From assembly GCF_011044975.1 (NCBI RefSeq), contig NZ_JAAKZV010000005.1, forward strand, positions 1 to 64,000: a stretch of 64,000 nt of DNA, in the 5' to 3' direction. The notes beneath the pieces were generated by a model that searched no databases, was not told the DNA's origin, and was given only the letters and a program-made list of their open reading frames with translations. The position numbers and the translations under genes were made by a program. Origin of the DNA: Streptomyces coryli. GTDB lineage: Bacteria; Actinomycetota; Actinomycetes; Streptomycetales; Streptomycetaceae. Of this stretch, positions 23,810-28,717 are shown in pieces; within the stretch, counting starts at the first letter, position 1, and every line of letters starts with the position of its first letter.

Positions 23810-24244
23810 TCACTCATCTTCCGGATTACGCCGCCCGGCTGCGCGCTTCGCGCGAGGCCGGTCGGATTCGTCGGCTGTTGCCCGCTGCCCTTCGTCGCGG
23901 GCCTGTTGGAAGGCGTCGGCGAGGGTCTGCGCGGCGCCGGACAAAGCGCCCTTGGTCTTGCCGCGCGCACCGGACTCGGTCATCTTGCCGGGCAGTTCAG
24001 GCAGCCCGGCCGGCTTCTTCGGTCCGGCCTCCAGGTCCAGGCGCCCGACCGCCTCCGCGAAGCGGAGATACGTGTCGACGCTCGCGACCACAATGCGGAT
24101 GTCGATCTTCAGCAGCTCGATCCCCACGACGGAGACGCGGATGAAGGCGTCGATCACCAATCCGCGATCGAGGATGAGCTCTAGGACGTCGTAGAGGCTA
24201 CTGCTGCTGCCTCCGCTGCCTTGCTGGGCAGGCACTACGGTCAT
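23810..24244 (-). CDS. gas vesicle protein, GvpA/GvpJ family, with long tail
   Basis: 144 residues. Residues 16-68 ([19 protein letters not shown], then [19 protein letters not shown] and [14 protein letters not shown]) are a clear GvpA-type structural domain, the protein that forms or caps the gas-vesicle shell. Classical GvpA has about 70 residues; this one adds about 75 charged residues ([33 protein letters not shown]), more like GvpJ/GvpM-type minor proteins. The ATG at 24244 has AGGAGG 7 nt upstream. No gvpF, G, K, L, N or O is visible within the window, so it is an orphan whose partners are elsewhere or lost. The Gly/Ala-repeat gene lies downstream on the same strand. Confidence 0.85.
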
Positions 24245-24336
24245 GCGACCCCTCCTGGTGCATGTCAGGCGCTGCCCGAGTGCCCGCGGCAGGGCAGATG
24301 AAGCCGGTCCCGGCGGGGGTAGCGCGGCGCCCCGGC

Positions 24337-24867
24337 TCAGGACGGCGGAGCTGGAATCGGCATCGACGCCAGCGCCCGCGCCGTGTGGACGAGGTTGGCC
24401 GCCATCGCCCGCCCGGTCGACGCCGACCAGTCGTGGCCGCGGTCGTCGTCGAGGTAGTCGGGGCCGGGCCCGGGGCCGAGATGCCAGTACGTCCATGCCT
24501 GACCCGGGACGGTGAAGCCGACGTCGCCGAGGGCGCCGGAGATCTCGCTGATCACGTGATGGGCGCCGTCCTCGTTGCCGGTGACCAGGACGCCGGCCAC
24601 CCTGTTGTAGGCGACGGGGCGTTCCTCGTCGTCGGTCTCGCTCATCATGGCGTTGATGCCTTCCAGGACCCGCTGCGCCACCGAGGACGGGCGGCCCAGC
24701 CAGGTGGGGGAGGCGATGATCAGAATCTGCGAAGCCAGCAGCTTTTCGTGCACCTGCGGCCAGTCGTCGCCCGCACCCATGTCGGTCTCGACCCCGGGCT
24801 TGAGCGTCAGGCCGACGGCGCGTACGACATCGGTCTCCACCCCATAGTCGGTGAGCGCCTTGATCAC
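24337..24867 (-). pseudogene. flavodoxin-family NAD(P)H reductase, N-terminus disrupted
   Basis: The GTG at 24867 gives 176 residues. [23 protein letters not shown] and [17 protein letters not shown] are typical of flavodoxin-like FMN-binding proteins of the NADPH-dependent FMN reductase/WrbA-like type. Upstream of GTG the same frame still reads as family sequence ([21 protein letters not shown], the phosphate-loop region) back to a TGA at 24940-24942, with no start codon. The first strand of the Rossmann-like fold is therefore missing. Either a frameshift or deletion has broken the gene, or translation begins at GTG and yields a protein without its FMN phosphate loop. Nothing shows which. 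Confidence 0.65.
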
Positions 24868-25565: not shown

Positions 25566-26369
25566 TCAGCCGTTCTGATGCTGGTAGGTGGCCCACTCGT
25601 CGGCGTGGTGGGCCATGTTCTTCATCCAGGTGACGGGAGCGTTGCGGGCGATCTCGTCCCATAGGTGCGCGTTGGCCTTGGCGAAGGCGGCGACTGCTGC
25701 GTGAGGGGCGCCGGCCCAGGAGGGGAAGCGGTGGCACCAGGCGTCCGCTTCGGCGGCGGTGTGGCCGGCTTCCATGAGGCGGAGGATGAGCACCGCGGGG
25801 TCGATCCAGGCGGCGCCGCGGGTGGGCCAGGCCCAGTCGATGAGGTGCGCCTGGTCCGTGATCAGGACGTTGTGCGGGGCAAGGTCGGTGTGCAGCAAGG
25901 AGTCGCCCGCGAGCTGTCCGGCCTCTGCCGGGGTGAGGTACGAGGCCCATCGTTGCTCCGCGCGCTTCCCTGTCTTTTCCGGGCACGGGGTCTGCTGGAG
26001 TTCGTCGATCGCCTGCGCGACGAGTGACAGGTCGGGGGAGCCGGGGCGGTAGTCGGCATGCCGGCCGTCGAGATGATCGTAGATGAGGAGATCCCAGCCG
26101 CCGGACTGCACGTGCCAGAGCAGACGAGGGCAAGCAGCGGGCAGATGCGGGTTGATGTCCGCCTCGCGCTGCTGGGTGCGGATCTGTGGATGGTCGGCCG
26201 GGACGCCTTTGGCGAAGTAGACCTCGGTGGCCGTGTGGAGGGTGGTCGCGATACCGGAGTTCACACCCGCGGACGCCGACACGGCCTTCAAGATCAGGCC
26301 GGTGTGCTGCTCGACGTCGTATCGGACGGCTGGGGGCAGGTCGCGCCACAATTGGCGGGCCATGGACAT
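25566..26369 (-). CDS. APH-fold phosphotransferase, partner of RiPP-like peptide
   Basis: 267 residues of the aminoglycoside phosphotransferase/protein-kinase-like fold. The nucleotide-binding Lys is probably Lys54 (EVYFAKG), the catalytic loop is HTDLAPHN (residues 160-167, catalytic Asp162), and the metal Asp is in LIDWAWPTRG (Asp178). All key residues are present, so it should be an active kinase. The ATG at 26369 is chosen (ATG 26363 also possible). It lies 80 bp downstream of the 51-residue peptide gene on the same strand. APH-like kinases serve as modification enzymes in class V lanthipeptide (LxmK-like) and thioamitide pathways, which makes peptide phosphorylation/dehydration a reasonable hypothesis. 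An ordinary antibiotic or metabolite kinase is the alternative. Confidence 0.82.
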   Translation of the reverse strand: MSMARQLWRDLPPAVRYDVEQHTGLILKAVSASAGVNSGIATTLHTATEVYFAKGVPADHPQIRTQQREADINPHLPAACPRLLWHVQSGGWDLLIYDHLDGRHADYRPGSPDLSLVAQAIDELQQTPCPEKTGKRAEQRWASYLTPAEAGQLAGDSLLHTDLAPHNVLITDQAHLIDWAWPTRGAAWIDPAVLILRLMEAGHTAAEADAWCHRFPSWAGAPHAAVAAFAKANAHLWDEIARNAPVTWMKNMAHHADEWATYQHQNG

Positions 26370-26449
26370 GATCGGATTCCTGGGTGTTGTGCGGTCGACC
26401 GCCACGACCCAATGACGAGTCGTGGCGGCCTGCGGGGAAGCATGGTGCG

Positions 26450-26605
26450 TCAGTACGGCTGGTCGTCGCCGGCGCTGCAGGAGCACATGACGGTCTCGAC
26501 CATGGTGTCGAGGTCGCCGACGATCTCCAGCTCGTCCTGGGCGAGGGGGCGGGTGGTGAGCTCGACCGGAACGGGGCGGCTGGGTGCCGCTGTCGGGGTT
26601 GCCAC
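26450..26605 (-). CDS. candidate RiPP precursor peptide (51 aa)
   Basis: GTG 26605 to TGA 26450-26452. A strong ribosome site GGGAGG stands upstream with about 10 nt spacing. The product has a Pro/Thr-rich start (ATPTAAPSRPVPVELTTRP), an acidic leader-like helix (AQDELEIVGDLDTMVETV) and a short Cys/Ser-rich C-terminus MCSCSAGDDQPY. This leader/core plan, with all Cys and neighbouring Ser in the last 12 residues, is that of a ribosomally made, modified peptide. The APH-fold kinase gene follows on the same strand. No YcaO, LanB/M, radical-SAM or HopA1-like protein was found in the neighbourhood, so the family is unassigned. Downstream or distant genes may complete it. Confidence 0.65.
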   Translation of the reverse strand: MATPTAAPSRPVPVELTTRPLAQDELEIVGDLDTMVETVMCSCSAGDDQPY

Positions 26606-26960
26606 GGTGGGTTACCTCCCTTCTCCGTGTTTATCTCTGCCGAGCAGGTGGATGACCCGGTTGATGCGCGACTTCCGGGCCGATCTGGCCGCAATCCAAG
26701 CCGGCAGGGCCACGGAGTACTTCGCGGTTGACACGGAGGATCGACTGGAGCCGCGCGGACATGAGGTGGTGACGGAAGGGGGCCGCCGGCCGAGTCGCCC
26801 CGGCCTCGACCCGGCGGACGTGGCTGTGCCCCTCACCGCCTGCGCCGTGGGACTCGCCTTCTACGTCCTCGTCGACGTTCACGCCGCTGATCAGGCCCGG
26901 GGTGCCGTGTTCCACCGGTATTGCCGAGCTGTACGCCTGACTGCTGGTTCCGGCACACGG
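26606..26960. other. gap between MFS gene end and peptide gene
   Basis: 355 bp. The minus strand here should contain the peptide promoter, and AGATAAA near 26630 is the only AT-rich -10-like stretch. A plus-strand reading (LVDVHAADQARGAVF near 26870-26915) weakly recalls the small DUF6207 family, but it has no proper start or end. No gene is supported. Confidence 0.4.
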
Positions 26961-28208
26961 TCATTGACCCGCAGTTGCCCGGCTCTGGTGCCGGCAGACC
27001 AGCGCTCCCGCGGTCGCCAGCGCCAGGAAGCCGCCCATCACCACGGCCATGGGGGCGGTGCTGCGGGTGCCGAAGAGGCCGATGAGGGGGGAGGCTGCGG
27101 CGCCGAAGGAGAACTGGGCCACGCCCAGCAGCGCGGACATCGTGCCCGGGGCCTGCCGGCCGCGGCTCTGTCCCACGGCACTTGCCGCGGGAAACAGGAA
27201 CCCGAAGGACGGGACGCTGATGAGCAGGCACAGGCAGAAGGACCAGAGCTGCGACCCCACCGCCGCGGTGAGGACCAGAAGGAGGAGCTGGCCGCCCAGC
27301 CCCAGCACGGCGCCGATGACCATGAGCGTCTCGGCACGCAGCCTGCGGACCAACCGCCTGTACAGGAGGGCCGCGCCGAGGTTGGCGACGGCGTTCACCC
27401 CGTAGACGAGGCTGCTCATCGTGGCCGGCAGGTGCAGCAGGTCGTGGAGGACGAATGTCGCCCCGGCGATGTAGGAGAAGACGGCGGCGCCCAGGCAGCC
27501 CATGGTCAGCACCGGCGCCAGGACAGTGGGCCGCGACAGCAGTGTCCCGGCGGCGCGCAGCGCTCCGCCGGCTCCGCCTCTGATCCGCAGTTCGGGTGGC
27601 AGTGACTCGGGTACGACCCGCGCGGCTCCCATGGCGAGGATCGCGCCGGCCAGGGCGAGCGCCACGAACACGAACCGCCAGGGCGCCACAGCCAGGAGGG
27701 CGCCGCCCAGGACCGGCGCGATCACCGGCCCGAGCGCTCCGATCGCGGACAGCGTGGCGTAGGCCCGGGAGAGTTCGACCCCGCGGTAGAGATCAACGAT
27801 CACTGCCCGCCCGACGACGATGCCCGCGGCTCCGCTGACGCCCTGGCCGAACCGCAGCGCCGTCATCACCTCGATGGTCGGCGCGCACGCGCACCCAAAG
27901 CTGAAGACCGCGAACGCGGAGGTGCCCAGCAGCAGGACGGGCCGGCGCCCCACCAGGTCGCTCAGGGGCCCCAGGACGAGCTGTCCGGCGATCACGCCGA
28001 GCAGGAACGCCGTCAGTGTCGCCTGCGCCCCGGCACTGCTCGTGCCCAAGGAGCGCGCCATGTCCGGTAACCCCGGCACGTACATGTCCGTCGCCAGCGG
28101 GCTCACGCCGCCGAGGCCGGCTATGACCGCCAGGAACACGGTGCGAGAGCCGGAATTCGACGCCGCTCGGACCGGCCCCCGTGGCCGACGCGTGCGTCCG
28201 GGCGTCAC
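26961..28208 (-). CDS. MFS multidrug transporter, Bcr/CflA type
   Basis: 415 residues, 12 predicted membrane helices. The N-terminal half has MYVPGLPDMARSLGTSSAGAQATLTAFLLG and the MFS motif A GPLSDLVGRRPVLLLG, both typical of the Bcr/CflA drug-H+ antiporters in the cytoplasmic membrane. The C-terminal half ends with LVCRHQSR. Its start overlaps the end of the MarR gene by 4 nt (28205-28208), so the two are translationally coupled and the regulator most likely controls efflux. The substrate is unknown. Confidence 0.92.
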   Translation of the reverse strand: MTPGRTRRPRGPVRAASNSGSRTVFLAVIAGLGGVSPLATDMYVPGLPDMARSLGTSSAGAQATLTAFLLGVIAGQLVLGPLSDLVGRRPVLLLGTSAFAVFSFGCACAPTIEVMTALRFGQGVSGAAGIVVGRAVIVDLYRGVELSRAYATLSAIGALGPVIAPVLGGALLAVAPWRFVFVALALAGAILAMGAARVVPESLPPELRIRGGAGGALRAAGTLLSRPTVLAPVLTMGCLGAAVFSYIAGATFVLHDLLHLPATMSSLVYGVNAVANLGAALLYRRLVRRLRAETLMVIGAVLGLGGQLLLLVLTAAVGSQLWSFCLCLLISVPSFGFLFPAASAVGQSRGRQAPGTMSALLGVAQFSFGAAASPLIGLFGTRSTAPMAVVMGGFLALATAGALVCRHQSRATAGQ

Positions 28209-28717
28209 CGTGCGCGCCCTTCCTCACCCGGCCGCCGTCCGTCTTCTTCAGGTGCCGTTCGCTCCGTCAAATCCAAGTCAACCAACGCGAGTTGCTGCAT
28301 GAGCTCACCGGCCAGCCGCAGCAGGCCGCGCTCCGCGGGAGTCAAGGTCCGCGCCAGTGCCGACGCCAGCCAGGCATTGCCGTCCCTCACGTGCTCCCGG
28401 AGTGCCTGCTCGCCCGCTTCGGTTACGGCGATGTCCTGACGCCGCTTGTCGGTGCTGCTGCGGCGGCGGGCCACCCTGCCCTGGCGCTCGAGTTCCTGCA
28501 CCACCCGAGTCAGCGACTGGGCCTGCACCCCTTCGATCGCCGCCAGTTCACTGATCGCAAGCGGGCCGCGGTGCTTGAGGTTGGCCAGAATCGATGAGGA
28601 CAGCCGGGTCAGCGGTTCGGGGCTGCCCTGGTGCTCGGCACGCATCCGGGAAGCCAGCCGCGAGACGCCCCACCGAAGCTGCTCGGCGGTGTACAGATCT
28701 TCTTCGTCAGCATCCAC
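28205..28717 (-). CDS. MarR family transcriptional regulator
   Basis: 170 residues with a winged helix-turn-helix: LTRLSSSILANLKHRGPLAISELAAIEGVQAQSLTRVV, then the wing QGRVARRRSSTDKRRQDIAVTEAG with the Asp/Arg pattern of MarR. N- and C-terminal helices provide dimerisation. MarR proteins are usually ligand-released repressors. The gene leads the operon with the Bcr/CflA transporter (4-nt overlap), so it should respond to a transported drug or phenolic compound. An operator was not certainly found; a weak GTGTT/AACAC repeat lies at 28738-28765. Confidence 0.92.
   Translation of the reverse strand: MDADEEDLYTAEQLRWGVSRLASRMRAEHQGSPEPLTRLSSSILANLKHRGPLAISELAAIEGVQAQSLTRVVQELERQGRVARRRSSTDKRRQDIAVTEAGEQALREHVRDGNAWLASALARTLTPAERGLLRLAGELMQQLALVDLDLTERTAPEEDGRRPGEEGRAR

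Follow-up and report, generated by a model that had tools for sequence, protein, structure and literature searches.

The locus considered here lies in 64,000 nucleotides of Streptomyces coryli DNA (contig NZ_JAAKZV010000005.1, positions 1 to 64,000; hereafter the window) and consists of a small peptide gene followed by a gene for a kinase of the aminoglycoside phosphotransferase (APH) fold. It raises the question of whether the two genes belong to a pathway for a ribosomally synthesized and post-translationally modified peptide (RiPP) and, if so, which residue of the peptide the kinase modifies. An earlier reading of this DNA (the original prediction) suggested a minimal or split RiPP pathway, for example one acting on two serines. 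Comparison of related sequences indicates that the pair is real, conserved and part of something wider than was then supposed, and that a tyrosine mechanism is better supported than a serine one. The window pair is probably an orphaned copy of a mobile, RiPP-like system that occurs in Actinomycetota and seems to be undescribed. Its features are the following.

26605-26450, minus strand: precursor peptide gene, 51 aa, GTG start, C-terminal end MCSCSAGDDQPY / VMCSCSAGDDQPY
26614..26619, minus strand: ribosome-binding site GGAGGT, 8 nt 5' of the peptide GTG start, read from the sequence
26453..26485, minus strand: presumed core, residues 41-51 (CSCSAGDDQPY), with a putative leader/core border
26369-25566, minus strand: APH-fold kinase gene, 267 aa, with K54, D162, N167 and D178
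26606..26960: 355-bp gap, the site at which relatives have a radical S-adenosylmethionine (SAM) maturase

The coordinates, residues and catalytic positions originally given for both genes all hold, as does the good ribosome site, and the genes are separated by 80 bp. The window has a single occurrence of the peptide's C-terminal pattern, and 100 shuffles have none; searches of Pfam, NCBIfam and PHROGs with the peptide gave no match. The Pfam and NCBIfam matches of the kinase are weak (24 bits with the APH family PF01636, barely above the cut-off of 23.2), as are its matches in a PDB sequence search (best E 0.014), and PHROGs returned nothing for it. Its AlphaFold model is confident (mean predicted local distance difference test score 96.8), and aminoglycoside phosphotransferases fill the first ten places among the Foldseek matches of this model, ahead of eukaryotic protein kinases. 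In an alignment of 102 kinases (the window and 101 rows of relatives, some organisms having been fetched twice), K54, N167 and D178 are identical throughout and position 162 is Asp in 97 and Glu in the remaining 5; the start, MSMARQLW, also resembles those of relatives. The predicted APH-fold kinase with a complete catalytic set is thus confirmed by Pfam, model and alignment. At loci L113, L114, L115, L126 and L130, Glu replaces the catalytic Asp162 (HTEWNP for HTDxxP), and the cores end in DDNPYK or DDNPYN.

Searches of plasmids by tblastn showed peptide relatives adjoining kinase relatives, directly behind radical-SAM genes. The exact DNA pattern C-x-C-x3-D-D-Q-P-Y-stop was then searched in a collection of one genome per species (84,980 species) and matched 52 loci, against about two expected by chance on a rough estimate; all 52 record titles carry actinobacterial names. 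By profile search, the kinase adjoins the peptide in 51 of the 52, and a radical-SAM gene lies directly upstream of it in 49, the exceptions being L021 (fragments with stops), L032 and L054. Overall, the maturase was seen with 143 of 151 non-redundant precursors, so that at the level of the family a small precursor is conserved beside a radical-SAM maturase. A peptide profile built without neighbour information matched 74 of 392 genomes of the Streptomyces group (roughly one in five), 28/297 and 19/297 genomes in two other families and 6/396 drawn across the phylum; the survey of the G007 family, overlapping mostly with the 28/297 survey, was kept out of these counts. Since the pair recurs across actinobacteria, its association is not due to chance, and the proposal of a RiPP-like precursor conserved together with an APH-fold kinase is supported. 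A second CSCSAGDDQPY end in Streptomyces sp. NBC_01669 (L054 / L145) has a scrambled leader and neither maturase nor kinase adjacent.

In the open-access literature, no operon of radical SAM, precursor peptide and aminoglycoside phosphotransferase was found and no description under DDQPY, and matches to four other core strings were unrelated; in the annotated records seen, members are labelled hypothetical protein, radical SAM protein or oxidoreductase, and phosphotransferase or kinase. The family thus appears to comprise widespread RiPP-like peptides, so far undescribed, that soil actinobacteria share with their phages. On the searches made, the family is new; it is known here from its sequences, and we claim no new kind of biology.

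A complete operon encodes, in this order, a maturase of the radical-SAM/SPASM-like type, which has an N-terminal recognition-like domain, then the precursor and last a tailoring enzyme. Very likely, the acidic leader is where the maturase binds and the C-terminal core is what it modifies. Its CxxxCxxC motif and C-terminal auxiliary-cluster Cys are invariant in 17/17 sequences, and residues 2-369 of its model align with SuiB and 3-348 with SkfB, the N-terminal domain included, so that all three elements of such a maturase are present, the N-terminal one resting on the model. The modelled likeness to SkfB and SuiB covers the fold over most of the chain; the identity is only 13-14%, the precursors differ, and we know of no kinase partner for either enzyme. 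Three results weigh against the pathway as proposed: in the four maturases scanned, the N-terminal domain had no Pfam hit; the loops at the cluster are weakly modelled; and no leader peptidase or exporter was found by Pfam in ten recurrent neighbour groups (of 20 listed).

The window lacks this enzyme: in all frames of the 64 kb the family profile reached E 3.4 at best, and six-frame profile, tblastn and blastn searches of the 355-bp gap for a remnant gave nothing convincing. The earlier remark that no second modification enzyme is visible is borne out for a radical-SAM maturase, and the absence from the window copy of an enzyme present in relatives suits a split or minimal pathway. The maturase might act in trans from elsewhere in the genome, or the pair might be a recently stranded remnant. 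That it is dead or dying, the maturase having gone when part of a mobile element was lost and both genes being left idle, is a serious possibility that we hold somewhat less probable than not. It agrees with the missing maturase and with other copies in the same state (L006, L097, L088, L105 and L144), for which no maturase match at E 1e-15 was obtained in the genomes of L097 (G259) and L088 (G375) or the L006 plasmid, only a weak match in that of L144 (G004), and fragments in that of L105 (G245). It also agrees with the occurrence of the kinase without the peptide (whole in L238, a fragment in L239) and with a MarR-MFS (major facilitator superfamily) gene pair, adjacent to the window copy, that in another genome (L240) stands without peptide and kinase. 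However, both reading frames are intact, no catalytic or core residue is missing, the ribosome site is strong, and the kinase diverges no faster than its relatives: it is 62-65% identical to six of them, which are 61-84% identical among themselves, with nonsynonymous and synonymous distances (dN and dS, NG86) of 0.25-0.31 and 0.70-1.08. By these values the kinase does not look released from selection or faster in its change, and a recent loss of the maturase would so far leave no trace. A scan for one promoter type found no promoter-like site 5' of the peptide, a point against the orphaned-copy reading of the pair, and a terminator scan at the locus gave nothing useful. At L105, a family kinase lies from -940 to -139 upstream of the end of a peptide that ends in NDNPH, with GNAT and without maturase; perhaps two operons have fused or decayed there.

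Which residue, then, would the kinase modify? The precursors are about 38-75 aa long, with inferred starts, and nearly all end in C-x(1 or 3)-[D/N/E]-D-[N/Q]-P-X, sometimes followed by one more residue; conservation falls on the Cys, on Asp-Asp-[N/Q]-Pro and on the residue that follows this Pro (X). In the 151 non-redundant precursors X is Tyr in 115, His in 23, Phe in 10 and Asn in 3. The kinase lies downstream of 112 of the 115 Tyr precursors and of none of the 36 with His, Phe or Asn, 34 of which are followed by a GNAT acetyltransferase; six of the 112 have GNAT in addition to the kinase. Since the kinase tracks X = Tyr, it most likely phosphorylates this tyrosine, and we consider it reasonably probable that the phosphate goes to the hydroxyl of this residue or to a group formed from the residue. 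GNAT as a His-specific partner was considered and rejected; it goes with Tyr, His, Phe and Asn and is therefore not the determinant. These counts leave out the window itself, L168 (which ends in PYQK, with a kinase present) and the false hit L195; they include L147, the second copy in the genome of L175/L207. For 19 loci with short downstream sequence, longer stretches of the same places were substituted, and in the non-Tyr rows L092, L077 and L088, with 1500-1556 bases 3' of the peptide, GNAT is visible and a kinase behind it would be only partly so. Of 45 peptide ends gathered, 3 were not used further.

The clearest single case is that of L001 compared with L003 and L119, which have Phe for Tyr and no kinase and keep the downstream hypothetical gene of L001 (51% and 49% identical). 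This gene, conserved downstream of the operon in the L001/L003/L119 subfamily, encodes 147-170 aa (L003 6201-6713, L119 6218-6694, L001 4281-4724); the proteins of L003 and L001 have no Pfam hit. Among 23 viral rows, repeats included, 14 combine Tyr and kinase, 5 His and GNAT and 1 Phe and GNAT, and 1 is cut off by a contig end. A tree of 154 maturases (L242, whose contig ends 415 bases past the peptide, being left out) yielded six independent pairs, the kinase going with Tyr in five, with none opposed and one undifferentiated; two smaller trees gave 2/2 and 3/3. The tree test of the tie between Tyr and kinase is thus suggestive and not significant, its sign test giving p 0.0625, above 0.05. 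Other points also weigh against a strict rule. The 112 kinase-linked precursors are not independent of one another, and three Tyr precursors lack the kinase: L134 adjoins, on a reading of the locus, a transposase-like gene, L145 is the second, scrambled copy, and L199 has neither kinase nor GNAT within 5 kb. The viral L246/L247, one peptide on two contigs, combines Tyr with GNAT, and no kinase was found there. A divergent viral precursor (L258 4109-4297) ends in SSDQVYNN, having lost the Pro and kept the Tyr and the kinase.

The original prediction offered as an example that the kinase phosphorylates Ser42 and Ser44, the phosphate then being eliminated and Cys adding to form lanthionine rings, as in class V lanthipeptides, which are defined by a kinase, a HopA1-like lyase and a cyclase and in which the kinase LxmK acts on a RiPP. 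The window peptide does have both serines, and its kinase shares the APH-type fold with LxmK. At the family level this mechanism is already contradicted. Counted back from the conserved Pro in 112 non-redundant precursors of all kinds, Ser occupies the position of Ser42 in 75 and that of Ser44 in 35; Ser is not conserved in the family. In the 112 kinase-linked precursors Tyr is always present, and Ser and Thr are absent from 11 between P-11 and the end, from 15 from P-9 and from 48 from P-7; because of these 11, the family as a whole cannot work by Ser dehydration. Pfam detected neither a HopA1-type lyase nor another class V partner among 26 window proteins (the peptide and kinase included; 48 candidate window genes were listed), and none of the HopA1/LxmY type in the ten neighbour groups. 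The family differs from class V lanthipeptides in having a radical-SAM enzyme, no detected lyase partner and no dehydratable core residue in common, and the serine route is accordingly very improbable.

Returning to the tyrosine mechanism, the step before phosphorylation may be a thioether between the invariant Cys and the neighbouring Asp or Asn. The ranthipeptide enzyme PapB is described as forming such links within Cys-X3-Asp/Glu (PMC9413430). The analogy is tentative: both systems have a radical-SAM maturase, and 110 of the 151 family cores have three residues between Cys and [D/N/E]; however, 40 have one (one other, L174, falls outside the pattern), the family core is a single motif at the very C-terminus instead of six, and its operon includes a kinase or GNAT. 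The difference in spacing between subfamilies would not require a single fixed thioether and so weighs against one. In the fullest form of the proposal, which we put forward tentatively and hold less probable than the orphaned-copy reading of the window, a phage- and plasmid-mobile RiPP family would have its Cys-Asp-Asn/Gln-Pro C-terminus rigidified by the radical-SAM enzyme, after which an APH-fold kinase of the small-molecule type would make a C-terminal phosphotyrosine, GNAT acetylation serving as an alternative or additional cap; this coded rule from core to tailoring enzyme would be used in competition between actinobacteria and mobile elements. If the Tyr rule holds, genome sequence alone would predict the residue modified by the kinase, and the APH fold, familiar mainly from antibiotic-resistance kinases, would count peptide tyrosine kinases among its members.

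The kinase or GNAT could instead protect the producer, phosphorylation or acetylation inactivating a toxic radical-SAM product inside the cell, with Tyr perhaps still the site. The model for this is the corramycin phosphotransferase, which inactivates corramycin in its producer. Its structure, which by the entry title acts on corramycin, is the top row for the kinase model, tied with others; it is only 16% identical to the window kinase, and we do not know of corramycin as a RiPP of the kind handled by this family. The ten neighbour groups include no exporter, L003, L119 and L199 have neither kinase nor GNAT, and tailoring and protection look alike in structure. We regard self-protection as possible and rather unlikely.

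Two further explanations concern the maturase. Mycofactocin and PqqE maturases are among its better NCBIfam matches, and mycofactocin likewise has a C-terminal Tyr in its precursor, which would suit a redox cofactor or signal excised from the C-terminal residues and decorated by the kinase or GNAT. However, the mycofactocin model TIGR03962 gave 57-70 bits with four maturases, against a cut-off of 265, no redox enzyme was found in the ten neighbour groups, and the terminal residue differs between precursors (Y, H, F, N, or Y with one or two more), unlike that of a cofactor precursor; we therefore judge this improbable. Alternatively, the radical-SAM enzyme could make modified nucleotides, supplied or converted by the kinase in a viperin-like antiviral pair, with the peptide incidental. 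The maturase of Streptomyces phage Success indeed matches the PADLOC model of prokaryotic viperins "associated with kinases" (pVip, E 5.9e-16, no stated cut-off), but NF038283 gave 32-45 bits against a cut-off of 180 in four maturases, the family enzyme has the additional N-terminal domain aligning with SuiB and SkfB and seven extra conserved Cys, and the peptide has a conserved end, which goes with the tailoring enzyme. This leaves the viperin-like pair with hardly any likelihood.

The mobility of the RiPP-like system is seen in the same phage, which carries the three-gene operon in complete form.

NC_073472.1 (L283) 266-2380: Streptomyces phage Success genes 1-3, complete operon, annotated kinase, hypothetical protein and oxidoreductase

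The operon lies at the left genome end, beside helix-turn-helix, metalloprotease and tyrosine-recombinase genes, and the recorded host is S. lividans. The peptide, gp2, reads MNTATTTTEETGTVVLVDDVEALTGDITPGCGDDNPYN, with the core PGCGDDNPYN in place of the CSCSAGDDQPY of the window; neither gp1 nor gp2 has a PHROGs match. The whole operon is also present on most of 22 IMG/VR contigs, which may be phages, plasmids or proviruses; these were kept from 29 loci returned, seven weak matches (L263-L269) being left out, and include repeats (L252-L254 and L261; L246 and L247; L248 and L260). The peptide of one of them, L241, closely resembles that of the window. L001 belongs to a plasmid with the name phiDSM40276, and one subgroup of operons repeatedly has a relaxase nearby. 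A role in competition between phages or elements is a natural idea; with the phage copy, what the system does biologically could be tested in a laboratory strain.

The genes next to the gap in the window stand outside the peptide-kinase system.

26961..28208, minus strand: Bcr/CflA-type MFS transporter, a neighbour outside the system
28205-28717: MarR gene, which pairs with the MFS transporter gene

In the same neighbourhood, a gene with a gas vesicle protein domain (PF00741) occupies 23810-24496 on the minus strand. Two alpha-L-rhamnosidases and one alpha-L-fucosidase are encoded between 142 and 15759 of the window, perhaps as a glycan-degradation cluster.
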